From: Antedon mediterranea | Taxonomy: Eukaryota > Echinodermata > Crinoidea > Comatulida > Antedonidae | Length of the DNA: 64,000 nt | Direction: 5' to 3' | Assembly (NCBI RefSeq): GCF_964355755.1 | Contig: NC_092673.1 | Coordinates: 1,679,001 to 1,743,000, forward strand | Shown here: piece after piece, positions 10,038 to 61,602 of the stretch | Layout of the letters: each line of letters begins with the position of its first letter | How positions within the stretch are numbered: the stretch's first letter is position 1 | Program-made: the position numbers and the translations under genes | Notes under the pieces: model-generated | Seen by the model: only the letters and a program-made list of their open reading frames with translations | What the model was told of the DNA's origin: nothing | Databases searched by the model: none

Positions 10038-10272
10038 TCACGTTGAAGGGGATGATGGTGGCGAACAGGACATTTCTTCAGCTGATGTCTTCATGGGTTC
10101 ACTACTCCACGGTTGGATACTTTGTAACGCGTTTAAGGAACTGTTGTGAACGCAAACTGCGTCACCTGTAGAGGGCTCCTGTAACTGTTTAATCATCGCT
10201 TCATGTTGGAGATTAAAGACAAAACGTGCTGCTGCTTGTCGTTCAGCTTCCCGTTCCTCTGCCGTCTGACGT
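10038..10272 (-). CDS. tlx: tlx exon 3 (C-terminus and stop)
   Basis: Acceptor TTTTTAG|ACGTCAG completes Arg57 and adds Arg58 and [11 protein letters not shown], matching the residues after the TLX homeodomain in vertebrates. The exon continues through FNLQHEA and [14 protein letters not shown] to a Ser/Pro-rich end and a TGA at 10038-10040. The phase fits exon 2 exactly, and all 77 codons after the split codon are open. Confidence 0.94.
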
Positions 10273-13200
10273 CTAAAAATGAAAAAAAAAGGAATATTAT
10301 TGGTAAGAAAATAAACGAATTAGCAATATTGAATAAAAAAAATGCAAAATTAACTATACTGTACATCATAAAACACATCCTTTGGGACACTCCGATTGCG
10401 TGTGTGAGAACGAGAGAAAATGTAGGTGGAGACGCTAGATCTCGTTATTCAAGGGATAACTCTGTTAAGGGGACATTTTTTGGTTTATGTCCCACATATA
10501 GAGGTTCTACTGTTGGCCTAACTACTTGCCATAATTCATTTCAAAATCAAAATCATTTTAAAAGCAAACAATTATCTAACGTAGTATAAAGCTGGGAGAA
10601 TTGAAAGATACGCGAGGGACATTTTTGTTTAACTTGTATTGTATTGTTCCAAATGTTAAATTGATATTGTATCTTGAACTCTGTGGTGATTCCTTGTCGT
10701 CTTATTAGCCAAAGGGTATACCATCATCCGATAGATTACCTATTCAATCAACACTACAATACAAAATCAAACGATACGATTTCTAAAAATTGTTTGAAAT
10801 TAAAATAATGAGCGAAAATACAAGTCACTATTAAGAATAGAGGGTAATAAGAACAAGACAAATATCGGTACACACACATCTGCGACAGATGCGCGCGTTT
10901 CCTGAATAGAGGACAGACTATCAATCTCACAAACCATCCTTCAGAATGGCGCCAAAAGTGAGCTTCAGATAAGTCAAAAGTCAAAGAATTACGTTCCTTC
11001 GGGCAAAACTTTTTTTGACAAATTCAACTTCCGAAACATTTACAAATCAGGTGTTATGTACCTCACGCCCGTTCTTAACCCCATTGCTTTCATCAAAAGC
11101 TGCATTCAATTAACATATTAACATTGATTTCTAGGCCTGTTGAATACTGGCGCCTTATACATCAATTTGTTGAGCACAAAGGGCTTTGTGATTGACTCAG
11201 AACGGTTGAAGATACCCGTGTTAGGCTCTGTAAATCAATACGACTTGGGGCTACATTTCTTTTGGATTGATATAAAAAATTAAAACAGATAAGCCTTAAG
11301 AGAAACAGCGAATCATACTTTTATCAAATAGATTCATACTATCTGATGGGAATTCGACCACTGTGTTTAAACAGATTGATACACCTGCCCGGTATTTCAG
11401 TAAACGACTAAATGTTACATGCTTAAAATGTTCAATCGTAAGTTATTTTTAACAAAAACAAAGGTTTTGCTGAATCTGTTTCCCTGCAACAAACTAAATT
11501 TATAGTTTTTCTACTTCTTGTCACCAAAACATTTACAAATGAATACAGATGAATAGACCATTTTGTAAAAAGTTATTTCACTTATTATAAAAGGAGAAAA
11601 TTAACGGTAATATTTAACAATCTTGTCTGACAGATTGGGCTAACTTTCTAACTGACTATTTTTTCCTTAGATAATATATTTGTTCTGGTAAATATTATTT
11701 TGTGTGAATAACTAATACGTGACATTAAAATGGCATATTCAAAAACATATTTTTTCTTGGAGACATTCCTTTAAAATAAGTTTAGAAACACTGGCCTACT
11801 GTATACCTGTTTGTACGCAATTGTTTGTTCATTTTTGACTATCGGCGAATTTACACGTAACTTAAATTTAATTAATTTTAATAACAACACATCAGTGTGA
11901 ACACAGTAATTGCTCACACATTTGTAGACGATTACTTCACATAATTTAATTACAACATATCAGTGTAAACGCAATCTTGTTCGCATATTTGTAGACGATT
12001 ACTTCTAAAGTACAATTTAATTACAACACATCAGTGTAAACGCAATCTTGTTCGCATATTTGTAGACGATTACTTCTAAAGTACAATTTAATTACAACTT
12101 ATCAGTGTAAACGCAATCTTGTTCACATATTTGTAGATGATTAGTGTAAACGCAAGGTTTGTTCTTGTAATTGTACACGTAGCTAATAACATCTTTGATG
12201 ATATATATTAATAACTCGTGTACATTATACTACATTCTACGGCATGATTGCTATTTGATTAAGACATCTACGTTAATTTACTATTTATGTGTAAAAGAAG
12301 CAACTCGTCAGAGACTGCTAATTCATCGCTATACATTGGGGATGCATTTGCTTGAAAATCTCTGCTCTATTAGAATCTCATTATAAGTAAAATTCCCATG
12401 TGTACCGTATTCATCTTAGTTGAGAATTGGATTGTCGTGAGGCGTTTCAGTGCTGGGATGCGCACCACCGGTTACCATATCTCTATCAAGAAAGGATCAT
12501 GTTAAGTTGACGCTATAATGATTAAGAAAAAAATATATAGAAAACACCACTTCCAATTTTGTAAGGATCACTTTAAATTGACGTGATAAATTCTAAATTT
12601 TAACCGGTAATACGTTTAGATTTGTTGTAAATCAGTTTTGGAATATTTCAGATAAGAATTTGTTTAAGATTGTGATAATGGTTGTCTTGAGTGCGCGCAT
12701 AAAAACGGCGACGTAGTGTTGACGCGTTTAATGACGTGTATTCTTAAACAAAACCACGTGCGTGTCAATAATTGTATCATTAAGTTGCTTAATAATGTCA
12801 TCAGTCATGATTAAGCAACTTACAACGGTGTAATACATCATTATTATTTCTTAACTGATTTAACTTTTAAAAACAACACAATCTATAAATAGACCGTTAA
12901 TCTATAATTATAGATAATCGCCAAAGGCTTATTTCTCAAGTTTTTAAAAATTAATCAAGGCGTGTTGTTATATAATGACAGATATTATTTAATGACATAT
13001 GATTTATATAGAAATTAAACCCTTTCAATGAAGGTAATGTGAATACGAATTACCATAGTTTAGATATTCGGAAATATTCAATTGGACATATACAATATTA
13101 TTTAAAGTTCCATTTCTTCAAATTAAAAAGATGATTATTAAATTAATCAACACGATTGATAATTATTGACGTACCGGTATCAGTAATACTTCAAAGAGAT

Positions 13201-16200
13201 GAACTTTACGCGCGCGTACACCGTAACATTTTTATCAGCTTTCAAACGCGCATTTAACGCGAGTAAAACGATGTAACTTTAGATGTCATCTTCGTTATAA
13301 CAATGTATTTCAATCATATTTTTAATTGTAGGCCTAAGCCTATAGCTATATATAAATTCATGTTTCCAATGTTTTTATTTCGAAAAAAACTGATCGTATA
13401 AATCTAACGTCAACTCAATAATAAGTCTATAGTGATTAAGTCAACTTAGCGACAAGATCAATTGTATTTAAAGTGTTTAAATCACGTCCACATTCCACCT
13501 GCTATTCTCTATCAACTGTAAAGTTTATAATTACCTTTGTTTTCTTTATTAGTTGATGATGTGTAATTTATTCAGTTTAAGATGTAATTATAGACAGCAA
13601 TTAGATTAACAACGAGGTAAGGCATCTATCACATGAACGTTTCAAAGCACAAGTCTACTGAAACTTGATCAAAAGCAATTAAACTTATAAAATTAACGCT
13701 GGGAAAAAAGCGACAAATCGAGAAAAAAAAATCAGAGACGTCGATAACACAACATTTAAAACGAGTTGGATTTCACTATCTTCATAGAAAACATATTATA
13801 AATATAGACACAGTTAAAGTGATATTTTGTACCTATTTATTTAAGTTTCTATTTTTACGGACTTAGATAAAAAAAAAACTGTAGGCCTATCGAATAATAA
13901 AAAAAGGGATTATTTTATGCAAATTAAATTTATATACATTTCTATTTTTACGGACTTTAGATTTTTTTAAATACTAAACTGTATCGAATAAAAAAATTTG
14001 ACTATTTTATGTTAATTAAATATATAGGCCTAATTGTGCATATATATATAATTATATATATAATATATTACAGTAAAGTAGTATTTAATAATTACGCTTG
14101 GTATATCGCGAGAAATGTTGTTGCACAATGCATGGTGGGAAGGAATTGTAAGCAAGTAAAAACAAATCCTGTAAAACGCAACGCGCGTACCTTCATCCCA
14201 TCATGCTTTGCGACGCTATTTGCGATAAACCCACTTTGAAAATGTTAACTTATAATTTAGTTCAAACATCGCTTATTAGGAGGTTGTTTGAGTTATGGTG
14301 TTATATCTGTATTGTACACCACGTGGATTCGATGTTTTTGACAATTATGGTTGTCATATTCCCAGTTCGTTAATTTTTCTTTTCACTTTATTTTACTTTT
14401 TTTGTTACTTTAAAAATCGTAAAAATGCATTTACCAAAATGGTGAATATTTTCTGAAGTTTTTAATTATTGTATAAAATATAGGCCTACGTTTCAATCGT
14501 GTGTATTTTATTTTTATATTTAAAGTATTATATTATGGAATACTTTGAGGAAAATGTTAGAATTTTAAGTTATACTAACTAGAGGGACTAATATGCGTGG
14601 AAAGGAACTGGCTACCCCTGGCCAAGGCTTAGTACAATGAGCTCCTAACATCTCATTCCCCTACGTTCAAAATAAACACGGGACTCACCTTACAATATAC
14701 TAATGTCAACATGCACATTTTTTTTTAATTAATTAGATATTTAAGCTATATTATGTTTACAGTTTTAAAATGTCAAATTCACTTATAAGCCCTCGATACT
14801 CTGGTTTTCAATTAACACAGCTCATTCGTGAGATGACGCTTGAATACAACGATTAGGCCGCCCTGATGATGTATGCTGTACATTAGAGGTTAGTGCGGTT
14901 GTATTCAAGATTACACTTGAGTTCATTTCGTCTAAATTCAAATATTAAAGATATATTGGCATCCGTAAATTTTTTTGTTGGATATGCCATTTTAATGTCA
15001 CGTAATAGTTATTCACATTAACTAAAAACTGGATCGGAACATTTTTTATTTCATTTCAAGCCAAAAATATATAAATGTTCTGTCAGACAATGGTTTTTTG
15101 TTAAAATTAACAGTTTCTTTTGTCTTTTTATAAGTTTATAAGTTATTTATTAAAACTGCAAAATGGCCTAATTTTTCCTGTTCTGGGGGGACAATACATC
15201 TTTAATCATTTTATACCCTTTTTTTTAAATCACAAAAATAATTAACTTATTTCAATAGAGTGACATAAGTTAATACATGCTAAGAGAGGGTTAAACTTTT
15301 GGTATTTTGGGGTTTATCAACTAATACCACCAACATTTGTAGTTTGTTTACCACGACTTGTTATATTATTTAACTATGTAATTTAACGCATTAATATAAT
15401 GTAATAAATGTTTCATGTTAGATGCAAGTTTTCTTCGAACCGATATAGAGGTAAACTCCGTAAATTCAGACCTGGTTTTTTAAAATATATATATTTCAAG
15501 CTGGACAAAAATTATTATATTTATCTAGCTTTGAAATATTTTATTAAATAAAAGAGACAACATGGGTTGATAATTTGGCTCCATCCTGATTAATGTTTCA
15601 TTAATACAGTCAAGGGGGAAATGGCAAAAGGCTTCATACTTTCTGGAGTTTTATCAGATAATCTATATTGTTTTCACAACTCTGTAACATGACCATAGTG
15701 CTGATTTTGCAATTTCCCCAACTAACTTTTCTTAAACAAATAGTTAAACACAAAACCGATTGTAAAATATCATTAGCCTACCTCCATTTAGTTCTTCTAT
15801 TTTGGAACCATGTTTTTACTTGGGCATCTGTCATTTTCAAAGCCTTTGCTAGCGATGCTCTCTCCGCCGATGCAAGGTACTTCTGCCGGTGAAAGCGCTT
15901 CTCTAACTCACAGATCTGAAGCCTAGAGAATGAAGTTCGTGGCTTTTTTCTTTTCGGTGGTGTTCTGTTTTGATACGGATGGCCTATCCGACGAGTTACT
16001 GTGGTTTTAAGAAAATATATTGCTTAACGGTAGAGAATTAAATTGTTTTTCAAATTTATTTTAAAACAAATGTATATTTTTCTCGTGAAAAAACAGCAAA
16101 AACAATCGATTACGTTATAGAATCTAAAATGTAGGCCCACATTCGGAAGCCAATACATTTTAAAATGTAAGCTTGAACACTGTATTTGGCCTATATGTGT

Positions 16201-19200
16201 ATTTATAAGGTATAAATATAACTTAAGTATGGTCTACATGGTCCTTGATTTTTATTTCTTTTATTGATTCATCGTATAATATTAATTCGTTACATATATA
16301 CATCTATTCAAATACAATACGGGTCCTTGATAATATTAAGACAACAAATTATGATTTTCATACGACAATCTTGCTATCCGTTTTGGTATGATTGACGTAA
16401 GTATTCCATTTAAATCAGGACGCAATAATATCGAAAAATGAATTTATTCATACGTCTTTAAATTTGAATAACTAAGAAACCAAGTCTCCATGTATATACT
16501 ATCAACAGTTTAAAGCACCATTAAGGTCTGATACATCATCGTTAAATCTACCAGGTCAATCGAAGTATCTCATTTTCAAATACAACACTTGGATAATAAT
16601 GCTATTAAGAAGATAAAGTATAGAAAATTAGCTATTTATATTCATAGTCAATATACATAGTTGGAAATTCACAAGTTTAGCACTTTTAACTACGACTAAA
16701 GATCTCATTTAAGAGTCACATTAACAGCATTATTTAACAGGCTATTTATGTCGAACTGAATCCAATAAGGCAAGAAGTAGATATTAACATGGTAAACGTT
16801 TTGCTGAAAAAGGTTTACATTTAGCTCGTGACCTATGGAGGAATAAACCCCACATAAAGTGTATTATAATTATATACACCATGTATCTATTTTATTTATT
16901 TCTTTTGAGGCGTGGAACCACCAGTTTTATTCAATCATCAACAACACTTTAAAATTGGTTAATGAATATTTTTTTATCTCGCTGTTATACTTTTTTTTCG
17001 TTATTTTCTTATATTTTCTTCATTCCTTAATATATAATTAAACTATTTTAATCAGTTATATTTGTATATTTATTTTACTTCTTAATTTTTGTTACAATGT
17101 TGTTGCTATCTTATTATCATCATTATTATTATCATCATTATTATTATCATCATTATTATTATCATCATTATTGTTATCATCATTATTATTATCATCATTT
17201 TTATTATCATTATTAATAACTATGTTATGTTGTTATTATTTGTCTTCGAAAATCGTATATTCTACGTTTTTCATATTCCATTTCCAATCTCTATTCTTTA
17301 TCGCTATCATTCTCTATACAGATTACTGGTGTAAGGACACATTGCAAGATGCAATTTTAGGAAGTTGTGTTAATAAGTATAATATTGAATGTCCAAATAC
17401 AAAACCTATATTTACCAGCCATTACATGTTGTACGATTAATCAATTAACATAGGCTATTATTACAATATGAATATCTATGCTACTAAAGTGAATACAATT
17501 AAAATTGATTTAATATTTTGATTTAACATTTTATAATGAAATTATAATTCGTTTCGATGTACACGTCTTTTTATATTACAATACAAGGTTTATTTTGCTT
17601 ATGGGAAGTTAGAACGAAATCTGTTTCACCACATATCTGTTTTTTTTTTGTGGTTTAGTTTTCCACCTTGATTTAACATTCTAAAATGGAACCTATGTTA
17701 TGGTTGCATCTAATGCGGGAAGTTATAATAGTTATACAGACCGCCTAACCCAAAGACGCCACCCTCAATAACCCTTAATCCTAAATAATGGTGCCTCGAT
17801 ACAAAATTACTATTACTCTTAGAGAAAATTAATTTGAAACACTACCAAAACAAACTTATAATAATCGTTTTTATTAATTATCTAAATCAATCAAACCAGA
17901 GATATACCAAACTGCTTTTGTTCAAGTGCTTCATCTTTATATAGTACGGCACATGTACGGTAGTGATGTGAAAGTTGATAACATCGAAGTGCATAACAGC
18001 CATTAAGATGCAGCTTGGCACCAAGAGGCCACTTAAGCAGTAAACATATGGGTTGCAAAATAAATTAAGGAAATCAAAGACACAATTTATGTCAGGAAAA
18101 TCATAAACCTAAAACATTATTATCTTTGAATTATAACATCAGACAGTTTGTCCTAATTTGTAAACAATTTAAATTTACCAGGCACCAGGTGACAAGCTAA
18201 TTTGCATAATGTAATTTTAGGCAGGCAGTTAAGGTTATATCTGTTAATAACCTCTGTGTATATTCGTATATATTATGTTTCTTTCATGCATTCATTTTAG
18301 TTGGTCAAAATCATTTTCAACATGTATACATCAACAAGAAAAATACACATAAAATGGAGTTAAAATGGTATAAAACTGCAATAACATAAAAAGCAGAAAA
18401 GCGTGAGTTAAAATATTGAAAAAATACAGTCATAAAGATTATGGTAACAAATGTTTAAAAGGAGATGCAAATGCATTAAAAATATTGTTTTCAGAATAGT
18501 TTTCATTTTTAATTTATAAAAAACCCAATACGAATTTACCAATGCCCTTTGAATACATTACAAAAAATATATTTCTAAAATAACAAAATTATTCAAATTA
18601 ATTAATAATTAGTTTACTAGAATAGTGTAGTACAGAATAGTTCTATTAATATATCAATTTGCACACAAATATGAAAAGCATAAGCTAATACGAATCTATG
18701 TTTGCAATTATCAATGTTTGCAAAAAAAGGTATTTTTAAAATTAAAAAATGATTCAAATTAATTATTTTTTTATAGTATACTACTTGTTATCAGTAGTTT
18801 TATTAATTTGCAAATAAAACAAACATAAATATCAGGCTTATGATTGTCCACTGTTTGACATTAGGAAATATTTATTTACCATATACACAATTTTTAAACA
18901 TTCATTTTATGTAACACAATTATTTAAATAGATTAATTAACTTCTATTGTAAGTGTAGCATAGAAAAATATAAGAACATTGTTGAAAAAAGAGGTAATAT
19001 GGAATACAAAGTGGATTTACAAGATTTAAAATGTTACTGATAAGTTGATCAAATTAACAAAAATTTTATAATGAAAATAATATGATTTTATGGTGAAAAT
19101 GATATTAATGTAAATAAAAGTGGTGTTTACGCGACAAAAGAGAACAAAAAAAACTTCTAATTAGTTTGTTTGTTTGTGCCTGATGCATTTTTCAATGGTT

Positions 19201-20680: not shown

Positions 20681-20905
20681 TTTCGTTCGACAAATTCCTT
20701 CCTTGTGTTTAAAAAAAGTTATTTTTTGATTGTCGTCTCTCCGTACATCAATCGATTTCAACGTCATCAACTTAAACACTTGTAATATGTGCAAACTATT
20801 AACTATTTCTCGTCAACATCGTATTCATAGGGTATTTATGTCAATACTTCTGATTGGTTGGTTTTGACTTTTGACACAGAAACATCGTCGGATCATTCAA
20901 CCAAT
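20681..20905 (-). promoter_or_regulatory. Likely tlx 5' UTR and promoter
   Basis: On the minus strand a TATA-like CATAAATAC lies at 20832-20840, with CCAAT at 20853-20857 just upstream and a second CCAAT in the other orientation at 20901-20905. This spacing puts transcription start near 20805, about 125 bases upstream of the preferred ATG at 20680. It also leaves too little leader for a start near 20794. The assignment rests on motifs only. Confidence 0.45.
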
Positions 20906-28735: not shown

Positions 28736-28752
28736 ACAAGGTTTACCAATTG

Positions 28753-38270: not shown

Positions 38271-39018
38271 AAGAATAGGCGTATAGGAAGAATAGGCGTA
38301 TAGGAAGAATAGGCGTATAGGAAGAATAGGCGTATAGGAAGAATAGGCGTATAGGAAGAATAGGCGTATAGGAAGAATAGGCGTATAGGAAGAATAGGCG
38401 TATAGGAAGAATAGGCGTATAGGAAGAATAGGCGTATAGGAAGAATAGGCGTATAGGAAGAATAGGCGTATAGGAAGAATAGGCGTATAGGAAGAATAGG
38501 CGTATAGGAAGAATAGGCGTATAGGAAGAATAGGCGTATAGGAAGAATAGGCGTATAGGAAGAATAGGCGTATAGGAAGAATAGGCGTATAGGAAGAATA
38601 GGCGTATAGGAAGAATAGGCGTATAGGAAGAATAGGCGTATAGGAAGAATAGGCGTATAGGAAGAATAGGCGTATAGGAAGAATAGGCGTATAGGAAGAA
38701 TAGGCGTATAGGAAGAATAGGCGTATAGGAAGAATAGGCGTATAGGAAGAATAGGCGTATAGGAAGAATAGGCGTATAGGAAGAATAGGCGTATAGGAAG
38801 AATAGGCGTATAGGAAGAATAGGCGTATAGGAAGAATAGGCGTATAGGAAGAATAGGCGTATAGGAAGAATAGGCGTATAGGAAGAATAGGCGTATAGGA
38901 AGAATAGGCGTATAGGAAGAATAGGCGTATAGGAATAATTGGCGTATAGGAAGAATAGGCGTATAGGAAGAATAGGCGTATAGGAAGAATAGGCGTATAG
39001 GAAGAATAGGCGTATAGG
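38271..39018. repeat. 17-bp satellite, 44 nearly identical copies
   Basis: The unit AAGAATAGGCGTATAGG repeats in register from 38271 to 39018. Only one unit, around 38935-38942, differs (GGAATAATTGGCG). Such uniformity means a recent or actively homogenised expansion. The true copy number may differ from the assembled one. Confidence 0.98.
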
Positions 39019-39823
39019 AATAATGTGATCTAATATCTATATTAGAAAGAAACTATAATTATTACCGTATTCTATTATTACATTGTTATTTTAATATTTA
39101 ATTATTATTTAAACAAAATATTTCACTTTATGTTTTACCTCTATAGTTGTCTACTTTGGCACATGTTTTTTTTCTCTTTGTTGGCATATGTTTTTTTCTC
39201 TTTGGCATATGTTATTGTAACGTTAACATACTAAGTCTTACTCTGATTAAGAAGGTACCACAGCTTGTTGTCTCTAAGCACAAGATGAAATTCATAAAAT
39301 GTGTAGTGTTCTATGACGTAATATAGGCACATTTGGATCCAATCGGGATTGTTATTGTTTTTACTAAATGATTGAGTAAGTAACTCCAAATGTTACACAT
39401 CTGAATTTGTGCAACCGAACACACGTAGGCATGCATATACACCCGGTAGATCTAGGAAGAACGTTTCATGGTGCGATCAAATTTGACACCTCCCCATCCT
39501 AATGTATGTTGTGGTTACTCCAGTTATAGTGAGGCCTAAGCATATATGAGTAGCCCTGCTTAACATTATAAACAAACTTACTCATCTTATTGTCCAAATT
39601 ATAAGTATTTATTTTCTTACTGTTTACGAATTTAATTTTAAATTAAGTAAATTAAGAAAAGATAAAATGTGCATTCAAGTAAAGGGAGAAGTGAAGACCA
39701 AAATGTAACCTGTTTTCCTTATAGGCCTACATTAATATGCAAGAAAGGAATTGTAACATTTGGAATTAACAAAAATGTGTTAAATGATATAATTTTATGT
39801 AATGACATGACATAATATGAATG

Positions 39824-45938: not shown

Positions 45939-48096
45939 CTGTAAAAAGTAAAGTTAAATAGGAATAATAAAGTGTGACGTATACGTCCAGGTTTTTTAAA
46001 TTCTAATATTACACAGGGGACCACTTTGTTAGCATTATCAAGAGAGATGTAAAGATTCTCAGACCACATCATAATCAACGTTTCCACTCATCTAAAGCTT
46101 ATTTCCGGAGTGACAATGCAAAATAAAGGTAGGCCTAAAAGAAATACATTAAAATGATATATAACTAACTAAATTTGACTGATAAAAAGCATACTATATG
46201 CAAAACAATGTGGTATTATTATCAATTATCGTCGGCAACCAAGAAACAATGTTTAACAATGAATAATATGGGTTTTAACTTAATTCATTTATACTATTTC
46301 TGATTTTAATGAACATTTGGAAGAATCATATAGTACAAAAAATATTTTTTTTTTAACTAAGCAAAAGAATAAGATATGTTAAACTATATGATTTTTATTT
46401 ATTATTTTTTTTTTAAAGGCGTTATTCGATGACCGTGTTGTTGATTATTGTATTTTCCTCTTTACTTTACTACCTTTATCGTATCCAGGTGTAAAAATAT
46501 GTTTATTATCATATCAGAATGTGCATTTTATGACCTAAAACATTATCTCGTGTGTGGGCCTGAGTGAAGTAAACTTGGATATCACAGCTGACTGGTGAAT
46601 AGATAGCAAACTTATACAATCGGAATGTGAATGGTGGTAAGTTAGGGAAATAATATGGAAATATCAATTACACGCTTACTTGCCTGTAGCATGGTAATAA
46701 AGATGTAAACCGCGCGCTTATATAAGCAGACGACATATGAAAACTCATCGTCTGACAAAACTATGGCGCGCCATATAAAACAGTTATTATTTTTATTTAT
46801 ACAGTGTTTGATAAGACGTTTATTTATTTATTTTTTTGGAGAATTAACGAACTGTTGTAAAAGTGTTAATAATTTTTTTTATTTATTATTTATTTAATCA
46901 CACTCTTGTTTATACAACAAGATATATAATATAGCAATTAAAATAGACACACTAGATAAAAACATCAAACTAACAGTCTTAAAACACCACAAATAAATAA
47001 CGACCTCAAGCAAAGGAATTTTTTTCTTTTAAAAGACATACTGTATATAATGTATGTGTACATTAATTAATTTAATGATAAGATCTTTTAAAGTAAATAA
47101 AAAACCCCAATCATTTTGTACTAATTGTCAATAGCAGGTCAATGTCTATGGAATACGAGTATTTCAGAAGAATTAAACTTTGTTTTAGATTTTTGTTTAG
47201 AATGTAATGATTTTTCTATTATAGTAGACCTATAATATTAATAGGTATACGTTTATCTTATAATATAATTATGTTTAGATACTTTAGGAACTTAACCAAT
47301 GGCCTATATGAAACGTTTGTACTATTTAGTGACTCCGTTTATCAATAAATAAAATGAATTTATTTAAAATGAACCCACTTTTAATACAAAAATGAGTTTG
47401 AATGACCTCAAAATGAATGTTTCTTAAAATGAAATTGATAATTTTATTTTATCGGGTTTACCAACCAAAAATACAATTTCAAACTGATTTTATATAATAA
47501 CTATATAACAATATGGGCTTAGGCTTAATCAGTGTTATATTTATTTTAAACAACAATAAATAATGACATTTATTATGATAATGATTTATGTTCTTACCTT
47601 CACTTTCAGATTCGTTTGCTTTTGAAATAGAATTTTCATCCTCGTCATCAACAATAATAGAAATTCGGTCATCTAATGTTGATTCTGAAGGGTACGTTGA
47701 TGACACCGTATCAGAGCCTGTCCTACAATCTGCCGATGGGTACGTAGACACAGTATCTACGCCTGTTCTTGCTTCGGGTAACTCATCCATATTCTCCTCC
47801 TCTTCCATTTTATCAGGTAGGCTTAGCTCATTATCCTTTAATTTGGACATTAATCTTTGCTGTAAAGTATGTTCTAATACAGATTTATCGTTGTTAGATG
47901 TTTTCGAGATTGGAGAAAAAGAGGTGTATGGATTGACTCCAGTATCTAAACCGTTCCGCCTCACGTCTGAAGAAGTAAGCATTCTCTGTTCAGGTATTTT
48001 AGTCCTATTACAAACACGGCCATCCGATTTTTTACCTAAAATATCAAGAATTGAAAACGGTGTCGACGAACTCTCTGCTGCCTGTGATCCAACCAT
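45490..48096 (-). CDS. nk3: NK3 (bagpipe/Nkx3.2-type) homeobox transcription factor, two exons
   Basis: Exons 48096-47598 and 45938-45490 join in phase 1 to give 315 residues. Exon 1 has the TN/eh1 motif TPFSILDIL (12-20), which recruits Groucho repressors, and an acidic stretch (IIVDDEDEN) near its end. Exon 2 encodes [16 protein letters not shown] and a full homeodomain (184-243) with Tyr54 in [11 protein letters not shown], the NK2/NK3 superclass residue. The segment [16 protein letters not shown] is typical of NK3. AKKVAVKVL after the homeodomain also matches Nkx3 proteins. The ATG at 48096 has a good context (ATTATGG). The protein acts in the nucleus. In known animals NK3 genes pattern visceral mesoderm and, in vertebrates, jaw cartilage and spleen. 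It stands between nk4 and tlx, same strand as both. Confidence 0.97.
45939..47597 (-). other. nk3 intron (1.66 kb)
   Basis: AT-rich, with GTAAGA donor and TTTTTACAG acceptor. Apart from poly-T and poly-A stretches no repeat or second exon was recognised. Intron phase and position relative to the homeodomain match nk4. Confidence 0.88.
47598..48096 (-). CDS. nk3: nk3 exon 1
   Basis: Encodes residues 1-166 and the first base of codon 167. The donor GAAG|GTAAGA is close to consensus. Open frame continues past the donor to 47479, but those codons (NINHYHNKC and on) are intronic by homology. The opposite strand is also open here (47588-48109), a mirror of this exon. Confidence 0.95.
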
Positions 48097-51300: not shown

Positions 51301-53280
51301 CTAGCACTGTAGTAGTCAATTACTGAGCTAGCATTCCGTTGGCATTCGTAGGGACCGCCTCGAGATCTTTCGGGTCTTCCCCACGGCTCAGAAACAGGCT
51401 TACTTGATACAGACCTACAGGACGTCATTTCTTATATCCACAAACATAATGACGGAGGTCGCGAAGCTTTCTTATATATAAACATTTGTGAGTGCTCTAC
51501 GAGTAATTTGAAGTTCTTACGTTGAGATGATATATGCAATAGCTGTGATGGTGGTACTTTGTCACTCATTATAGACTTCAGATTGACAGATTCTTCCAAT
51601 TGATTATTGAAAATTAAACAAAGACGGCGATGGTTTATCACAATCTTTCTCGTCATCTCATCAGTTATCATCTTCATCATATTCAATAAAGTGACGTCAT
51701 AATCATCACCGTCATAAGATCATCTTCACAACGTTCCATCTATTTAATGTTCATGTTAATGTCATTTATACAATCACAAATGTAAGGTCAACAATCAATA
51801 TTTAAAGATATTTTTCCCCAGAAAAAATAATCTAAACATTTGTTTTGTCGAAAATGTAATGGTATGCCACAAAATAACTTATTCACTTTGAAAAAAACCC
51901 AGTAATTTAAAGGGAATACAGTTAACCGGAAGCCCCTTTAAGTCAATGGGTTTCTGGTTAAATTTAACCGTTTAATCATTCCTGGTTTTTGGGGGTGTTT
52001 TTGGCAAAAGTAACTTGATTAAAACTAGAAATGGTCAAAGTTTTTATTTTATTCATTTTACATGTTTTTGGAGAACAATACTTCATGTTTAACCGATGGC
52101 TGTCAATCATATTTAACACCAGTTTCGTGAGAGGCATTCCCGCTGATAAGCAAGGACCACCAAACGACCGTCAAACAATGTAATATTATATTATAATTAC
52201 CACAAACCTGATACTCCTCTTGAAAGTTGACAAAATGTCAGATACTAGGGTATATCGTAAAATGTAAGTTGTGAATATTGTGTTATCGTGTTTGATTGAT
52301 GAAATCTTGACAAATATCACAATGTTCTGAAGTTATGAATGACAAGTGTTGTCACGTGATTGGATTTGGTGACTTTCATGCCAATCATTGTATAATGTTT
52401 GAGACATTCATAGTGACTCGTCAGAATTGTAAGTCGGCCTAGTTAAGTTTTAACTTAACTTTTTACCAGTTTATGACTTGGAATAAGCCGAGATTAATTT
52501 TATTCAATTCAAGTAAAAAGTAAAAAAAAAAATGCGTTTACTTCAATTCTACAAATCAATCTAAAATAAATCAAACCCAATATCTGAATTAAACTCTAAT
52601 ATTGCTTATTGAGTTTACAAATAGTTTCCTCAGCTATGCAAAATTTTCATTTACAGTACTATACTGTATTCGATTTCCGAATTATGACTAATTACAAAAC
52701 AGATTTCCAGAGGGCGACATTCAAAATCGTTTATAAAATCAAATCGAGGCCATCGGTCTGTTGTGTCAGGTAAACTTTGCAAGTTCTCGAAGCAAAATTT
52801 AAAAACCGCAATCATATTAGTATTAGAAAATCGTAATTTGTATACAAGTTGTATTTAAATTAATTTAAATTATCGTTGCTTTAGACATTATTTCTTGTAG
52901 TTATAGACTTAATTATGATAATATTTTTAATATGATGATTTTAATATTTAATATTTTTTGCAGCGTGTACACTATACATCGTCATTCAAGTAAATGACAT
53001 TTGAGTGAGTACCAACAGTAATTTATTGAATGTGATATGCTTTGGTTTGATTGTGCTCAACAAGTTCCATTTTTTTCTCGGTACTGTTTTTATATTTTAT
53101 AGAGAAAATTTAGTTTATTATTATTTTAAAGAATGTTGCATTTAAACAATTCCTCTATTTTATTAGGGAACTTGCTGAATATTAAAAATGTTTTGCCAAA
53201 AGTGCCCCAAAATACATATCGTAATTAGCTTTTACAGTAGTAAAAGGTAAAGGTGAGTCTCATGTTCTCTGAACGTAGTA
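48331..53280. other. Intergenic between nk3 and nk4, left part
   Basis: No gene recognised. It includes a 9-bp inverted repeat ATGGAGGTA/TACCTCCAT around 48847-48886, the palindrome ACAATGTAATTTACATTGT at 48912-48930 beside TAAT-rich sequence, and an imperfect inverted repeat with TTAACC/GGTTAA ends at 51922-51961. Higher-complexity islands are listed separately. Frames such as 51432-51686 (minus) have no recognised domain. Confidence 0.5.
50120..50480. other. High-complexity GC-richer island
   Basis: About 360 bp of non-repetitive sequence, with overlapping open frames on both strands (50046-50264 and 50239-50469 minus, 50396-50668 plus). The minus-strand peptide (WGLPAAISLIHIISDDFIGG and on) is not known to me. 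Its position between nk3 and nk4 makes a shared enhancer plausible. A decayed coding fragment is the alternative. Confidence 0.3.
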
Positions 53281-53885
53281 GTAGAGCAGTTAGTGCCATA
53301 AAAATAGCCAAGTTGTGCACTTTATTACCAAAGCATGAAACTTGCCACAAAGTTTCTTTGATGTATATAGATTAAAAATATCGGGGGGTGCCAAGTGTCC
53401 AACGTCCGGTATGGCGGCCATCTTGATTTCAAAATGGCCACCATAAAAACAAAAAGTGTTCATATCTTGGGAACTATAAACAGTAGAGACTTGATTCTGG
53501 TGTTAAATTGTTCACAAACCACATATTTCTATTTGCTCTAATGAAAAGTTTCGTGAAAAAATGACCGGAAATGACGTTTCTCCCAGTTTGACCTTTGACC
53601 TCTTATCTGTATATCTCAGTAACTACTGATCATTTTCAATCGATTTTGGTGTCATTTTGTTCAGCATAGAGACATTTATATTTGTAGTAATGAAACATTT
53701 TCACATAAAATGACTGGAAATACAATTTATAACCTTTGACATATATAATATGTGAACATACTGTATGTGGTTTACATTGGTATAAATGCACCTAATTTTT
53801 TTTAACGAAATAACTGACACTGCAAAAATGACCAGGAATTATTATTCTGAATTTTTGACTTTTGATGTGATAGGATAGGCGTAAA
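53281..53885 (+). repeat. Left inverted arm
   Basis: Carries in order GTAGAGCAGTTA, TTTATTACCAAAGCATGAAA, CAACGTCCGGTATGGCGGCC, ATGACCGGAAATGACGTTTC and GATAGGCGTAA. Each block is mirrored in the right arm. Confidence 0.9.
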
Positions 53886-53929
53886 GTATGACAGATCACT
53901 GAGAAACAGCAATCACTGAGCTCATCTAT

Positions 53930-54061
53930 GCCGACTTGTTTGCTAAACTGTGATGTGTCAATCGTTAGATAAAAGTTTTGGTCCTCTCTCCATCATCTTT
54001 TTTTTTTGCACTGTATTATACCATATGGACAATTGTCTGAAATAAAAGTTGAATTGAATTG
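53930..54061 (+). mobile_element. LINE 3' tail inserted in the foldback element
   Basis: The segment ends GAAATAAAAGTTGAATTGAA, TTG, matching the tail of the LINE at 34261-34645. It abuts and interrupts the minus-strand coding relic that resumes at 54062. The 5' boundary is uncertain and no coding part remains. Confidence 0.55.
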
Positions 54062-54370
54062 TTAGATGCCATTTGGAAATATTTTTGATGTAAAGTAGCA
54101 TTCTTTCGTTGGCCTCTTTGATGTTGCATATGAGACAAGTTCGGAAAGTTTTCATTTTCATGAGTTAAGAGAATACCGTCTTTCAAAGTACTTACTACAA
54201 ACTTATCCTGCATTTGTGCAGTAGACCTACTTTCATTAGTCAGAAACTCAGATAATTCTTGTTCATTTTCGTTGCATCTAAAAAAATGTACTCCATTTTT
54301 ATGGTAATGGGCCTTTGCTGTAAACCATCTGAATCCTTTTCCTCGATTTTCTCTACTCATTGGTTTTTTA
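54062..54370 (-). pseudogene. Decayed transposon-associated coding relic
   Basis: A minus-strand frame from 54360 reads GVHFFRCNENEQELSEFLTN, then FVVSTLKDGILLTHEN and SHMQHQ. After one frameshift it continues as EANERMLLYIKNIS. This order resembles a repeat-associated protein family widespread in invertebrate genomes, in which FLRxNENKxELFxFL precedes a conserved SHEEADTRMLLH block. The frameshift, the missing acidic residues and the LINE tail insertion show it is dead. The family identification is from memory and tentative. Confidence 0.4.
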
Positions 54371-54571
54371 GCAAAATCCGAACCAAATCAATTCGTAAAA
54401 GACATCTCAATATAATTATTCAAGTAATTCTCAAATTAGTGACATGGACCTACAATATACTGTTCTGTACAAGACCTATTTAGGCATCCACTTGTGGACT
54501 TTCACTTTCAAGGTCTTGGTCTCCTAATCATACAAGAAACAATGTCTGATTTAATCAATCAAAGTAGTGGG

Positions 54572-55852
54572 TCCAGACAAAGAAGGGGATGTAAGACCAT
54601 CCACAGACAAAAAAGGGGGTATAAGACCATCACAGACAAAGAAGGGGGGTATAAGACCATCCACAGACAAAGAAGGGGGTATAAGACTATCCACAGACAA
54701 AGAAGGGCGTAAGACCATCCACAGACAAAGAAGGGGGTGTAAGACTATCCACAGACAAAGAAAGGGGTATAAGGCCATCTACAGACAAAGAAGGGGGTGT
54801 AAGGACCATCCACAGACAAAGAAGGAGGTGTAAGACCATCAACAGACAAAGAAAGGGGTGTAATACCATCAACAGACAAGGAAGGGGATATAAGACCGTC
54901 CACAGGCACAGAAGGGGTGTAAGACCGTCCACAGACAAAGAAAGGGGTGTAAGACCGTCCACAGATAAAGAAGGGGGTGTAGGACCGTCCACAGACAAAG
55001 AAGGGGGTGTAAGACCACCCACTGACAAAGAAAGGGTATAGGACCACTTACAGACAAAGAAGGGGTATAAGACCATCCACAGACAAAGAAGGTGATGTAG
55101 GACCATCCACAGACAAAGAAGGGGGTGTCGGACAATCCACAGACAAAGAAGGGGATGTAAGACCACCCACAGACAAAGAAGGGGGTGTAAGACCATCCAC
55201 ACACAAAGAAGGGATTATAAGACCATCTACAGACAAAGAAGGGGGTATAAGACCATCCACAGACAAAGAAGGGGGTATAAGACCATCCACAGAGAAAGAA
55301 GGAGGTGTAAGACCATCCACAGACAAAGAAGGTGTGTAAAACCATCCACACACATAGAAAGGGGTGTAATACCATCAACAGACAAAGAAAGGGGTTTAAT
55401 ACCATCAACAGACAAAAAAGGGGGTATAAGACCGTCCACAGACAAAGAAAGGGGTTCAAGACCATCCACAGACAAAGAAGGGGGTATAAGACCATCCACA
55501 GACAAAGAAGGGGGTGTAGGACTATCCACAGACAAAGAAGGGGGTGTAGGACTATCCACAGACAAAGAAGGGAGTGTAGGACCATCCACAGACAAAGAAG
55601 GGGTGTAAGACCATCTACATACAAAGAAAGGGGTGTAAAGACCATCCACAGACAAAGAAGCGGGTATAAGACCATCCACAGACAAAGAAGGGGGTATAAG
55701 ACCATCCACAGACAAAGAAGCGGGTATAAGACCATCCACAGACAAAGAAGCGGGTATAAGACTATCCACAGACAAGGAAGGGGGTATAAGACCATCCACA
55801 GACAAAGAATGGGGTATAAGACCATCTACAGACAAAGAAGGAGGGGTAGGAC
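54572..55852. repeat. 30-bp tandem array, about 42 copies
   Basis: The unit is close to GACCATCCACAGACAAAGAA followed by GGGGGTATAA. Units vary by substitutions and one-base indels. Because 30 is divisible by three and the unit has few stops, long frames stay open on both strands (up to 318 codons). They carry only the repeat and are not genes. Confidence 0.96.
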
Positions 55853-56258
55853 CATATTACCGAGGAAGCATAGGCCTACAAAAAGAAGATGCAATCAAAA
55901 TAGGCCTACCAGCCACTTGGAAAACAATAAATTGTAGAATAACTGAGGCTTGATTGTTGAAATATAAAGGGTTCTTTGTAAGGTCATTAATAATATATTG
56001 ATATAAACACGATCATCATACTATTCATTTGACATTCAAATACAGTCTATCTCGAAAAGAAGCTCATACTATCACCTTTTCGAGGTTTTACGGTATTCCA
56101 TAACATGTATGTTATTTCCTCTGTCAAACTATTAAAACTTTTAGCGAATCAGAAGGTGCCAACATCATTGAACTAATGGTACCACCAAAAGCACAATGTT
56201 TACCAATTTTATGTACTATATACAATTTAAGTCCATTAATCATTTAATATAATTACGC

Positions 56259-56803
56259 CTATCAGGTCAAAGTTTAGTTCAAAATTAGGTGCATTTAAGA
56301 CCACCAAAAACCACATACAGTATATTCACATAATTAAAAATCAATAATTAAATGTCAAAGGTCATAAATTGTATTTCCGGTCATTTTATGTGAAAATGTT
56401 TCATTACTACAAATATAAATGTATTTATTCTGAACAAAATGACACCAAAATCGATTGAAAATGACCAGTAGTTACAGAGATATACAAATACGAGGTCAAA
56501 GGTCAAACTGAAAGAAACGTCATTTCCGGTCATTTTTTGACGAAAATTTTCATTAGAGCAAATAGAAATATATAGTTTGTGAACAATTTGAGACCAGAAT
56601 TAAGTCTCTAATGTGTATAGTTGCCAAGATATGAACATTTTTTGTTTTTATGGTGGCCATTTTGAAATCAAGATGGCCGCCATACCGGACGTTGGACACT
56701 TGGCACCCCCCGATATTTTGAATCTATATACATTATAGAAACTTTGTGCCAAGTTTCATGCTTTGGTAATAAAATGCACAGCTCATGTCATTAACTGCTC
56801 TAC
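56259..56803 (-). repeat. Right inverted arm
   Basis: Reverse complement of the left arm. Recognisable blocks include ATGGCCGCCATACCGGACGT, GGCACCCCCCGATATTTTGA and TTTCATGCTTTGGTAATAAA, ending TAACTGCTCTAC at 56803. Confidence 0.9.
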
Positions 56804-56805
56804 TA

Positions 56806-57012
56806 TAGGGGAATGAGCTGTTAGGAGCTCATTGTACTAAGCCTCGGCATTATGTGGTAGGGTGGCAGTTCCTTTCCACGCCGCCTTTTTTCTCCCTAGT
56901 ATTTTCAACCAGGTACTCATTTTACAGCTGAGTGGACTGGGAGTTGTCGGGCATTGAACCCGGGTCTATCTGTACGACAGTCAAGTGTCCTAACCACTCG
57001 GCTATCCAACTC
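56806..57012 (-). mobile_element. tRNA-derived SINE
   Basis: Read on the minus strand, the head at 57012-56941 folds like a tRNA. GAGTTG pairs with CAACTC, the RNA polymerase III A box is TAGCCGAGTGG, and the B box is GGTTCAATGCC. The anticodon arm is degenerate, so it is not a functional tRNA gene. The body runs through CAGCTGTAAAATGAGTACCT and GGCGTGGAAAGGAACTG to GAGCTCCTAACAGCTCATTC and CCCTA. The last part recurs at 14590-14666. The 3' end touches the right arm of the foldback element. Confidence 0.9.
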
Positions 57013-57380
57013 TGTATATAATAATAGTAATTTAAGAGGGCGCTAGACACTTTACATGAAATCCAAAGATCATCTTCTCTCTATGTAACTAACCCGTTAG
57101 AAGGCGTGAATAATGTTAACACCAAACGTTCCTATTATTTCTATAGAAGTCTTTTTATAAGCAAATCCATTTTATTTAGATGAAAGTAAGCAAAAAAGAG
57201 TAGTATAAGTGCAAAGTAATAATAAATGACAAGGCCTACTAAACACGAGTACGGCAAATCTGAAACAGTTGGTTTTAGTGTTCTTTCTCTAGATTTTAAT
57301 AGGCCAAATATTACAGACATACAACAACGTAGGCTATCATTACTTTCTGAAGGAGATTAAAATCAGTACTTTACTCCAAT

Positions 57381-57492
57381 ACCAGTACCTTGCTTGCTCC
57401 AATACCAGTACCTTGCTTGCTCCAATACCAGTACCTTGCTTGCTCCAATACCAGTACCTTGCTTGCTCCAATACCAGTACCTTGCTTGCTCT
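57381..57492. repeat. 23-bp tandem repeat, five copies
   Basis: ACCAGTACCTTGCTTGCTCC recurs at 57381, 57404, 57427, 57450 and 57473. It creates the repetitive minus-strand frame at 57340-57615, which is not a gene. Confidence 0.95.
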
Positions 57493-57499
57493 TATACCA

Positions 57500-58308
57500 T
57501 GCATCAAACATAATGAAATAAATAGTTTAGCGATAAAATAACTTTCACTGAAACGTTGGCTCATTAGCATACAGTACTGTACAAATGTTCTCTTTGTCGA
57601 AATTCTCATCTTCACGGGTTTCTTTTTATTCTTATACCAAAATTATGATGCAAATTATATATATTTGACCACCGTCAATAATTGTTTAAATAGAATGAAT
57701 TTTAAATGTACGGTAATTATAAGAGAGCCTCAGCCACGCCAACGCCAATGAGGCCTACTTAAGTGGGACGATTTTTTTTTAGACCTATTTTGTCAGTACG
57801 GTGGTGTAACTTTACCCTGGAGCTGAAGAGTACTATCATTTTGATTAATATTTTGTTTGTACACTTGTCTATTTTCCTCACCCATTTCACCAGGTGTAGA
57901 TATATTTATATTATCAATATTAGCAGCTATAATAAGCTGTTTTTATCATGACCGATGAGATACACCTACACCAATCTTGTTGGCAACGGGTTTTTTTTTC
58001 TCATAAAAATGCCCTGGTAATAATTAGGCCTAGTTTAAAGGCTGTAGAACAATGTAGTTCGCTTGTGCCGAATGGAAGCCGAATGAATGCCGAATGGAAG
58101 CCGATTGGATATCGCACATTTTGAAGGTCCCTGAACTCTTGATCGATCGATATTATAATCATTAATTAACTTGCTTGTACTGTGTACAGTAATTAATAGT
58201 TAACATTAATTAAACAATATCACAATGTTTATGTGTTAGCGCTTTTTGTAGTATAGTTTGAATAGTTTAGGAATTATACATGCAGCAAAGAGGTTGTTAT
58301 CAAAACTT
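57500..58308. other. Intergenic, no gene seen
   Basis: AT-rich; includes a small triple repeat of CGAATG(G/A)A(A/T)GCCGA at 58068-58104 and no recognisable exon. Confidence 0.5.
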
Positions 58309-58487
58309 AAGCTTGGTTCCCACTAGAACGTAACGCAATGACGGGACGTAAACGCAACACAAGCGTTTTAACCAATGACAAGCGAAGCAGTTAGCAATCA
58401 CAAGCGAATAAGCCATCGCTTGTGATTGGTCAATTCACTTGCGTTGCGTTACGTCCTTGTGTTGCGTCGCTAGTGGGAACCAAGCTT
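58309..58487. mobile_element. MITE family B, best-preserved copy
   Basis: AAGCTTGGTTCCCACTAG at the left and its exact reverse complement CTAGTGGGAACCAAGCTT at the right delimit a 179-bp element. Inner sequence is rich in ACGTAACGCAA and carries CTTGTGATTGGTCAATTCAC. No coding capacity. Confidence 0.92.
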
Positions 58488-59020
58488 GAGTGCTTCACAT
58501 ATATATCAAAACTATCATCATAGTCATTGAACAGACTTGATTTTTTCCACGATTTTAAATTACTTATATCGTGGTCAATTGCGAAGCATCCCTGTCGTCC
58601 AATCACCGTCGCATCTAATTATTACGGTGGGCTTCTTACGTCGTAAGTAAATATAAGGCTGAGAAGGTTATGGTGTCAAAATAAAATTCAACGTGATTCA
58701 GGTTTTTTATCAGAACCAAGCCGACCCAACTGAAATAAATTAACACAATAAAATGTAAACTATAATTTGATTGCAAATAATTGTGTTTATTTAATTTCGT
58801 TTTGACTAAAAACTACAAAAATGCAAACGTTCCAGAAACATGTTAGCTGTTTTATAGATTCGCTAAAAATGACGACGTTTGTGCGTTTGGTATTAAACAT
58901 TTTTACAAATTATATTTACATTGTATAATTTCTAAATATATTATCTAGAACTATATCTAAAACTTTTGTACACAGTTGCATAATTATTTGAGGCAATGGA
59001 AGAATGCATTATAGTTCATA

Positions 59021-59245
59021 AAGCTTGGTTGCCGTTCGAGTTGCAACGCAAGGACGTAAGTGCATAAGAAGTGCGTCCTAGCGTTAAGCGTGGTTCCCAC
59101 TACTAAAGACGCAACTCAAGGACGTAGACGAACAACGCAGTTGACCAATAACAAGCGCCAATCGATTGATCTATTGCTTGTGATTGATCAAATCACTTGC
59201 GTTGCGCTTACGCTCTTACGTTGCGCCGTAGTGGGGAATCAAGCA
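59021..59245. mobile_element. MITE family B, partial plus full copy in the nk4 3' flank
   Basis: A left-end fragment (AAGCTTGGTTGCC) begins at 59021, and a full copy spans about 59085-59245 with GTGGTTCCCACTACTAAAGA at the left and CGTAGTGGGGAATCAAGC at the right. It ends only about 36 bp downstream of the nk4 stop codon, so it probably lies in the nk4 3' UTR. The plus-strand frame at 59060-59320 is a product of this repeat. Confidence 0.85.
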
Positions 59246-59280
59246 TTAGTGTCTTTCAGTTTATTTCGCATACCCGATGA

Positions 59281-59810
59281 TTACCAATGTCTGACATCTT
59301 GCATAGGGGACTGGATATAGCTACACTGCTGTGGCATATTATGCTGATTTGAATAGTTTGTATTAAATGGTGACGACGAACAATTCATATCTACGAGATA
59401 CTGAGATGTGTTGAAGTTATAAGGTGGTGGTGATGCTAGGCAGGAGCGGCCATCTCGGACAAGAACCGGTACAGAAACACGTCGAGAGGCTAGCTGACTA
59501 CTGTGATCGTCTAGCTCCAAATTTCTGTCTTGACGCTGCCTTTTACACTTGTATCGTCGATTTTGAAACCAGATTTTCACTTGTGTAGGCGAAAGTTTGA
59601 GTAACTTTGCAAGGTGTTCTCGTTCGGGTGCTGATAAGTATTTTTGCTGTTTAAATCGTCTTTCGAGTTCAAAAACTTGAGCCTGAGAAAAGAGGACTCT
59701 TGGCTTTCGACGTTGTCTGGGCTTCGTTGGTTTGGTTGGTTCAGTGCCTTTAGAAATGTTCACTACTATTTCGCGTTGTGTCATTGAATCCAGATGAGAT
59801 AGTTCGTCGA
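59281..59810 (-). CDS. nk4: nk4 exon 2 (homeobox)
   Basis: Acceptor AATCAACAG|TCGACG completes Val104. The exon adds DELSHLDS before the in-frame Met113, then the basic linker, homeodomain, NK2-specific domain and an Asn/Ser/Gln-rich tail, ending VRHW and TAA at 59281-59283. Confidence 0.96.
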
Positions 59811-61602
59811 CTGTTGATTAAAAACAAATCAAATTTGTAAATCTATAGATAAATGTCATAACGTACAATATACAGTATTTAGTACAAAGGACATGCAGCA
59901 ACGCGGTCTTAATATCAAAAGTATTAAACCAAAAAAAGTTCAAATAAGTATGCTTTTCGTGTCTTAAAAGTCCACATGCTTAAATAATAGCTTAATTCTT
60001 TAATTGTGAATTTTGTTTTCTCGATATACCTTTCACTGTTTCGTTTATTTCATGTGTTGTTCAGGATTATGTACCGTGCCGTACACTAAAGTTTACCGAT
60101 ATTTTGTTTCAATTTTGAAATCTGCAGAGACGCAAAGCAAATGTTGAAATTCGAAATAAAAATATGAAATATATTTGAATATTATATTATACAGATCATT
60201 TACTGATCCTTGTCAAATCGTATGCATCGACAACAACATGGGTGTACCTAGGCCTATACGTCAAATTTTTGTGTGTTTGTATAAACTCACTGTGTTAGAT
60301 CACACTCAACTCAAGTTGTTTCAAACTCGAGTTGTTGGTTGATGTGTTTATTTTAAAACTTCTACCAGAAACTTAACAGATACTTTATGCTTTCCGCATC
60401 CTCTTGATTCCAAAAAATAACACAACAATTTGCTTTAGGGCACGCGTATTTATGTAATCTTCTTCAAGACTAGCAAAAAACACATGAGGCCTCTATTTAT
60501 CAATGAACATTTGATTTTTCTTTAATTACAGTGCAAGATCAGTACTGTCATGGCTCATTATGATCTGGAGATGGTTAGTGTCACTTACTAGTTTGAGATA
60601 TAAGTATCACATTATAAGTATATCAAATATTATTAGGCCTATTCTTTATTTATTTCAATTCATCACACATAATCATAAACATACATAAATAATCATAGTA
60701 CAAAAACAAACCACAAAAAAAGAATGAAAAGGAGGAATCTGTGAAGCATCTTATAAGTAGAAACCTCCTGTTACAAAACAATAATATTAATAGAAATATG
60801 AAAAAAGGGCACACTGTAGGCAAATAATTTAATTTTTAAGAAAATGCAAACAATCTTGTTTTTTAGCTTTACAAAAAAGATATATTCTTCATTGCAAAGC
60901 ATCATTCAGTACATGGCTTTTTGCATTATTATTATCTCGTTGCTAATTAGACTCTAGCCTTATAAAGCTCTGTCTACACTATCAAAATAGTTTGACAAAA
61001 AAGGTGTTTTTTTTTTGTCACATAACGTTTGATAGTGTAGACAGAGCTTTAGAAATGAGTAGGTATGATTTATTTGACCTATTTTAAAATGAATGGTTTA
61101 TAATCAGTTTACACAATGTTTACAATAATATAGGCCTAAAGATTAAAATACGGTAATCAATAGTCGCATATTGAAAAACAAATTGACTTTGCCTATTTAG
61201 CTGGGAAGTACCTGTTTTCCTTTATATAATGTTTACGTATATTGATATTTACGGTAATTTAGTTAGTTAATTAATTAATTAATAATACATACCTTGATCA
61301 CACGTAGGCGATTGATTGTGCGTCTTGTATTTGTCCGGAATATCATGGATGAAGGATGAATAGACAGATTCCGGGTTCAAATCCATCTCTGTGCATTGGT
61401 TGGTGTGGGACTCCTGCTGCTGCTGCTGCTGCTGGAAGCTCGATGTAGCATGGGAATAATCAACAAACGGAAATTGGTACTGATGCTGTTCGGCTAAGTT
61501 TAATATATCTTTCACCGAGAAAGGTGTACTATTAGCAGTTATGATTGAAGAAGGTGAGTAAGTGGTCATTGAGTTTTGCTGCTCAGTGCTCTCAAAATTC
61601 AT
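59281..61602 (-). CDS. nk4: NK4 (tinman/Nkx2-5-type) homeobox transcription factor, two exons
   Basis: Exons 61602-61293 and 59810-59281 join in phase 1 to give 279 residues. The TN/eh1 motif TPFSVKDIL is at 26-34 and seven Gln at 57-63. The homeodomain (137-196) starts [20 protein letters not shown] and has Tyr54 in [11 protein letters not shown], the NK2-class residue. The NK2-specific domain [12 protein letters not shown] is at 213-224, present in vertebrate Nkx2-5 but not in fly Tinman. The C-terminus VRHW resembles the IRAW end of Nkx2-5. The protein is a nuclear DNA-binding regulator. NK4 genes specify cardiac and other mesoderm in studied animals, and the same role is inferred here. 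The ATG at 61602 has A at -3. A TATA box lies 40 bp upstream. The gene is divergent from the sideroflexin gene. Confidence 0.97.
59811..61292 (-). other. nk4 intron (1.48 kb)
   Basis: GTATGT donor and AATCAACAG acceptor. It contains the complete MITE family A copy at 60965-61049. No additional exon was recognised. Confidence 0.88.
60963..61051. mobile_element. MITE family A, short complete copy with TA duplication
   Basis: AAGCTCTGTCTACACTATCA (continuing AA) at 60965-60986 and its exact reverse complement at 61028-61049 form 22-bp inverted ends around a 41-bp centre. TA flanks both sides (60963-60964 and 61050-61051), consistent with Tc1/mariner-type insertion. It sits in the nk4 intron. 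Confidence 0.92.
61293..61602 (-). CDS. nk4: nk4 exon 1
   Basis: Encodes residues 1-103 and the first base of codon 104, with the TN motif and the polyglutamine tract. Donor CAAG|GTATGT is an excellent match to consensus; reading through it meets a stop after a few codons. Confidence 0.96.

Follow-up and report, generated by a model that had tools for sequence, protein, structure and literature searches.

The NK4, NK3 and TLX genes and their neighbor LBX

A 64-kb stretch of the genome of the crinoid Antedon mediterranea (contig NC_092673.1, hereafter C4; C4:1679001-1743000, referred to below as the window, and the frame for all positions given without a contig name) carries three homeobox genes of the NK class, NK4, NK3 and TLX, on its minus strand. 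A fourth, LBX, lies on the same strand beyond the right end of the window, such that the four are transcribed in the order LBX-NK4-NK3-TLX within 81 kb (C4:1769925-1689038). Under uniform placement, the chance of four given genes falling within 81 kb of this 354-Mb assembly (18 contigs) is ~5e-11. A first-pass annotation had described nk4, nk3 and tlx as co-oriented, in that order, within 52 kb; this is borne out, position 10038 being the end of the TLX stop codon and 61602 the start of NK4, and the linkage that it proposed between the NK4/NK3 block and TLX not only holds but is extended by LBX.

The window has a base composition of 32% G+C, and there is no N within it or in the 134 kb formed by the window and its flanks. 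Homeodomains were located by a six-frame motif scan of the window and by a genome-wide Pfam homeodomain search, which agree on three minus-strand homeodomains there. The genome-wide search gave 104 matches, of which 68 were read (64, plus one, plus the three in the window), with complete coverage of C4 (23/23); 28 of the 36 left unread end no later than profile position 47, as would an exon interrupted by an intron, and extra diverged NK copies may exist elsewhere. The search itself scored 150 of 163 candidates. Two maximum-likelihood trees were built with reference homeodomains entered by hand, the first from 61 of the 64 matches (a 20-residue match, a 41-residue one from Hhex and one containing a stop were dropped; Hhex entered the second tree). 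The gene models are predictions from sequence alone; their introns are of GT/AG type, and their reading frames are free of internal stops and end in frame.

NK4 (tinman/Nkx2-5 type) is predicted to encode 279 residues in two exons: the first (61602-61293) begins with a start codon at 61602 and includes the TN motif TPFSVKDIL at 61527, and the second (59810-59281) supplies the homeodomain, the NK2-specific domain RRVSVPVLV at 59484 and the stop codon. NK4 joins fly tinman at a support of 100 in the first tree and 99 in the second, and in the first it stands outside a clade (support 97) that unites NK2.1 and NK2.2 with the NK2-like genes that this genome carries on contigs C10 and C9. The sequence CKRQRQD follows the recognition helix, as in Nkx2-5.

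NK3 (bagpipe/Nkx3 type) starts 11.2 kb from the NK4 stop codon, and its two exons (48096-47598, with the TN motif TPFSILDIL at 48063, and 45938-45490, with the homeodomain and stop codon) yield a predicted protein of 315 residues. The top match among solved structures is Nkx-3.1 (92 bits, the next at 81), and the gene groups with Nkx3/bap at supports of 87 and 86 in the two trees. TLX is assembled from three exons into a predicted protein of 268 residues: exon 1 (20680-20326) contains FSIKSIL, which is eh1-like, and an FPWMESRR stretch; exon 2 (15998-15782) holds the homeodomain, with a threonine in the recognition helix; and exon 3 (10272-10038) gives the C-terminus, its stop codon ending at 10038. 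Its best match, at 126 bits over 70 residues, is to chain 3a01_A (which we take to be fly clawless/C15), followed by TLX2 at 94 bits and the next protein at 78, and it falls in the TLX/C15 clade at supports of 99 and 98. Structure matches (for NK3 and TLX), motifs and homeodomain trees (the phylogeny having been proposed as a check by the annotation) uphold the assignment of all three genes to their families.

LBX occupies C4:1764855-1769925, 22-27 kb past the right end of the window. Its exon 1 starts at C4:1769925 or 1769919 and contains SPLSALEELTNKTF, which we take, by eye and in comparison with LBX1, for an LBX sequence; exon 2 (C4:1765354-1764855) includes the homeodomain (C4:1765119-1765289, minus strand). 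Both trees group the gene with LBX of human and fly, and no LBX chain is present among the best 60 of 77 PDB matches to it. A tblastn search of LBX against the 134 kb recovered the LBX gene, the homeodomains of the other three genes and a single 24-residue match at E 4.3; no LBX remnant was found between NK3 and TLX.

We observe little else among the four genes. The window contains 144 open reading frames (ORFs) of at least 60 codons, of which ten were given to Pfam (seven between the three genes, one in a TLX intron and two beyond TLX); none had a match, although genes with short exons could escape such a test. One ORF between NK4 and LBX likewise had no Pfam match, and the window shows no Rfam match at gathering scores and no tRNA. 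Outside the cluster, a BRF2-like gene lies 12 kb beyond TLX, and still further to the left comes an RCC1-like exon; on the LBX side there is a fibronectin type III exon (C4:1781015-1781272). Three repeat arrays are present in the window: 23 copies of a 61-bp unit (98%) near the left end (1441-2863), 44 near-identical 17-bp units between NK3 and TLX (38271-39024), where repetition alone opens three minus-strand frames, and 43 copies of a 30-bp unit (87%) between NK4 and NK3 (54574-55855).

NK-linked genes along C4 and other homeobox loci

All nine core NK genes (as listed in PMC6050708) are found on C4, an outcome with a chance of ~1e-8 under uniform placement. Msx, NK1, NK5, NK6 and NK7 are 1.8-3.4 Mb from the four-gene cluster, and all join their references with high bootstrap values: NK6 (3.61 Mb), NK7 (4.475 Mb), Msx (4.695 Mb, 2.96 Mb from the cluster) and NK5/Hmx (4.997 Mb) at 100, and NK1 (5.048 Mb) at 99 and 100. 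Hhex (4.956 Mb; bootstrap 100, 78 bits to PRH) lies among them, forming a second group, NK7-Msx-Hhex-NK5-NK1, of 573 kb, within which the Msx-Hhex-NK5-NK1 portion takes up 353 kb. NK6 is isolated, its distance from NK7 being 0.86 Mb. A second homeodomain exon is seen for NK7 and Hhex, and none for NK6 within the 1.15 kb fetched. The annotation had proposed looking leftward for NK1; the homeodomain matches on that side are those of a single Vax-like gene (named by eye from two exon matches at ~28 kb), and NK1 lies on the right side, 3.3 Mb from the cluster. Further along C4 are Emx (15.3 Mb, bootstrap 98), Noto (36.1 Mb, bootstrap 100) and two BarH/Barx-like homeodomains with weaker support (32.5 Mb). 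A homeodomain at C4:5098447 (5.098 Mb) groups weakly with BarH and has no second exon in the 10 kb fetched; it may correspond to the Vent-like gene that an oyster paper lists beside NK1 (PMC7566022).

The genome-wide search also picked out homeobox loci on other contigs. On C2, 12 Hox-type homeodomains and an Evx-like one (named by eye) span 0.41 Mb (C2:7793581-8206132), with one posterior Hox gene on the other strand. A Hox11/13-type candidate at C2:8834273, 0.63 Mb outside this run, was named by eye from 46 homeodomain residues that do not distinguish types d and e, its match breaking off at position 46 as though an intron interrupted it; Hox11/13d and e are described as lying outside the Hox cluster in every class of echinoderms, and two hemichordates are reported to offer no clear case (PMC6307216). 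Dlx (tree support 100) is on C2 as well, and Hox and Dlx are reported to share a chromosome in sea star, sea urchin and amphioxus, not in hemichordates (PMC11175523). Two tektin exons (two of the four fetched were searched against PDB) share 70% and 80% identity with chains of 8SNB, a sea urchin structure, and 59% and 59% with 7UNG, a human one (PMC10973386). Together with the detached Hox11/13-type candidate, the Hox-Dlx linkage and these identities make the genome, judged by its sequence, most likely that of an echinoderm. A search for mitochondrial COX1 gave no match.

On C10, NK2.1-like, NK2.2-like and Msxlx-like homeodomains lie within 173 kb (C10:15151088-15323865). With a Pax1/9-like paired domain 3.7 Mb from these NK2 genes and FoxA not identified in a check of the pharyngeal cluster, that cluster is uninformative here as a deuterostome marker. 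Five extra NK2-like homeodomains on C9 (12374355, 13413600, 13464219, 13786941 and 17926539), three of them very diverged (FQNNRAKIR), are possibly a lineage-specific expansion. Three ParaHox-type homeodomains (Cdx-, Xlox- and Gsx-like by eye) sit within 95 kb on C5 (29971187-30066464), and on C8 a single open frame of 3,044 codons includes four homeodomains (12532856-12535357) and probably encodes, at a guess, a ZFHX-type zinc-finger homeobox protein.

Origin of the four-gene cluster

The bilaterian ancestral order on which published accounts agree is Msx-NK4-NK3-Lbx-Tlx, the placing of NK7, NK6, NK1 and NK5 being disputed (PMC13088399); orders in other animals are taken from papers throughout, the present genome being the one that we analysed directly. 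The annotation had held that the order seen here matches the ancestral one, and this is not supported: LBX precedes NK4, and Msx is megabases away. With LBX beyond NK4, the Lbx-Tlx pair is split by NK4-NK3; and because LBX is not between NK3 and TLX and no remnant of it was found there, the cluster can be called intact only in part. The NK cluster on C4 is real and well preserved but slightly shuffled, and is not the intact ancestral one.

We consider it probable that the four genes are what remains, in compact form, of the ancient bilaterian NK cluster, arranged LBX-NK4-NK3-TLX after LBX was shifted by a local rearrangement. Descent from the bilaterian cluster would then be the most likely source of the linkage; shared or interleaved enhancers may have kept the genes together; and, to judge from the published orders, LBX would have left its place between NK3 and TLX for one beyond NK4. 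All four proteins have a homeodomain and are without visible damage, and, going by the known families, would, like their relatives, control cell fates in mesoderm, muscle and nerve. NK4 and NK3 carry TN motifs, and TLX an eh1-like one. Motifs of the TN/eh1 type recruit Groucho co-repressors, and may mediate repression by these three proteins. NK3/NK4, Tlx/Lbx and NK5/NK1 have been described as conserved subclusters, rearrangement being far rarer within them than between them (PMC10726417); in Antedon the NK3-NK4 and NK5-NK1 pairs are retained, whereas Lbx-Tlx is split, yet still close. Since such pairs are rarely broken (PMC10726417), the split provides a test of whether a shared regulatory region is needed.

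Several observations weigh against this reading. The arrangement has been seen in one genome, and may be no older than A. mediterranea. In gene-order permutations (Hhex left out), the Wotton order recovers three of eight adjacencies (P 0.25), as does the model NK5-NK1-Msx-NK4-NK3-Lbx-Tlx-NK7-NK6 (3/8, P 0.25), while the same model with NK1 and NK5 swapped recovers four (4/8, P 0.07); linkage and pair proximity are solid, but overall agreement with ancestral gene orders is not beyond chance. The LBX trio's own support is weak (52 in the first tree, none printed in the second). Among solved structures, Nkx-2.1 (thyroid transcription factor 1) matches NK4 best, at 104 bits, ahead of Nkx-2.5 at 101; homeodomain identity is 49/57 to NKX2-5 and 48/57 to NKX2-1; and human NKX2-5 falls not within the tinman and NK4 pair but at the base of the NK2/NK4 group (first tree).

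Closeness in itself does not prove unbroken inheritance, given that drosophilid NK clusters are reported to be secondarily regrouped (PMC7566022, PMC10726417). By the same precedent, the Antedon genes could have drifted apart on one chromosome and been reunited by inversions within the lineage, in which case the tight cluster would not be ancestral. The position of LBX, off its inferred ancestral place, and the distance of Msx, NK1, NK5, NK6 and NK7, megabases away, fit such a history, and together indicate that the chromosome has been rearranged. We nevertheless regard regrouping as unlikely, in that all four genes are on one strand, NK4 and NK3 keep their ancestral neighborhood and order 11.2 kb apart, and none of the ORFs given to Pfam points to a foreign gene among the four.

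That the gene called NK4 is instead a duplicate of NK2.1/NK2.2 type, and no orthologue of tinman, appears very improbable. The near-equal homeodomain identities and the rank of Nkx-2.1 in the structure matches speak for a duplicate, but 104 against 101 bits fails to separate Nkx-2.1 from Nkx-2.5, whereas the tree does separate them, by the tinman grouping outside the NK2.1/NK2.2 clade described above; distinct NK2.1- and NK2.2-like genes are moreover present on C10, NK4 adjoins NK3, and CKRQRQD follows the recognition helix as it does in Nkx2-5. False linkage through the joining of unrelated contigs is hardly credible, with 134 kb free of N and the four co-oriented genes sharing a chromosome with Msx, NK1, NK5, NK6, NK7, Hhex, Emx and Noto.

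Beyond the four genes, the nine core NK genes on one echinoderm chromosome fall mostly into two groups. We suggest, tentatively and with less than even confidence, that NK5-NK1 ancestrally stood beside Msx at the NK4 end, and that the dispersal seen in chordates is derived; the order favored by a 2026 paper places NK5-NK1 after NK6, and the ancestral order, weighed there with arthropods and an onychophoran, is called contentious (PMC13088399). The four-gene cluster and the nine-gene linkage, in a deuterostome that is not a chordate, would suggest that break-up took place within chordates, and C4 can serve as an outgroup, at the scale of a chromosome, against which to test the rival ancestral orders.

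Comparison with other NK clusters

Among the literature matches listed (for the longer lists, the best 20 or 25), with subscription literature mostly outside them, we found no published account of an NK cluster in an echinoderm, which does not prove novelty. The Drosophila cluster runs tin-bap-lbe-lbl-C15-slou. As in the fly, the NK4, NK3, LBX and TLX families are tightly linked in Antedon and NK4 adjoins NK3; unlike in the fly, where it lies between NK3 and TLX, LBX is beyond NK4, one LBX was found, and NK1 is 3.3 Mb off (fly members: PMC2446394). Lbx and Tlx are described as adjacent in flies, many other arthropods, Platynereis and amphioxus (PMC10726417). Spider NK core cluster A (Msx1, NK4, NK3, Tlx, Lbx and NK7; PMC10726417) shares the NK4-NK3-Tlx run with Antedon, in which, by contrast, LBX is at the opposite end and NK7 and Msx are distant. 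The Msx-Hhex-NK5-NK1 neighborhood of C4 recalls the spider and sea spider arrangement, where Hhex lies between Msx and NK1 plus NK5 (PMC13088399); linkage of Hex to the NK cluster in a hemichordate has been mentioned, and NK1, NK5, Msx, NK4 and NK3 are listed for Nematostella, a listing not stated as map order. In the oyster, a near-identical complement of NK genes and genes linked to them shares one chromosome (PMC7566022), dispersed there among other genes, whereas Antedon packs four tightly.

Apart from the hemichordate mention, the deuterostome arrangements described in the papers cited here are chordate, with the cluster broken (PMC2446394, PMC5882950), and tight NK clustering is reported as lost in deuterostomes (PMC2446394), which makes the Antedon cluster informative. 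The annotation had drawn this contrast by separating the chordate NK3/NK4 and Tlx/Lbx blocks; that is right in outline, but in humans TLX/LBX genes still share chromosomes 10 and 5 with genes of NK4 type (PMC2446394, PMC10726417), so the blocks are not wholly separated there. In amphioxus, Msx, NK4 and NK3 are linked, as are Lbx and Tlx, NK5 is reported lost, and five ascidian genomes are described without clustering (PMC5882950). Antedon shares with amphioxus the NK4-NK3 pair, and differs in having it between LBX and TLX within 81 kb, with Msx 2.96 Mb off and NK5 present. Genes largely scattered in lancelets and vertebrates thus stay close together in Antedon, with one gene displaced.

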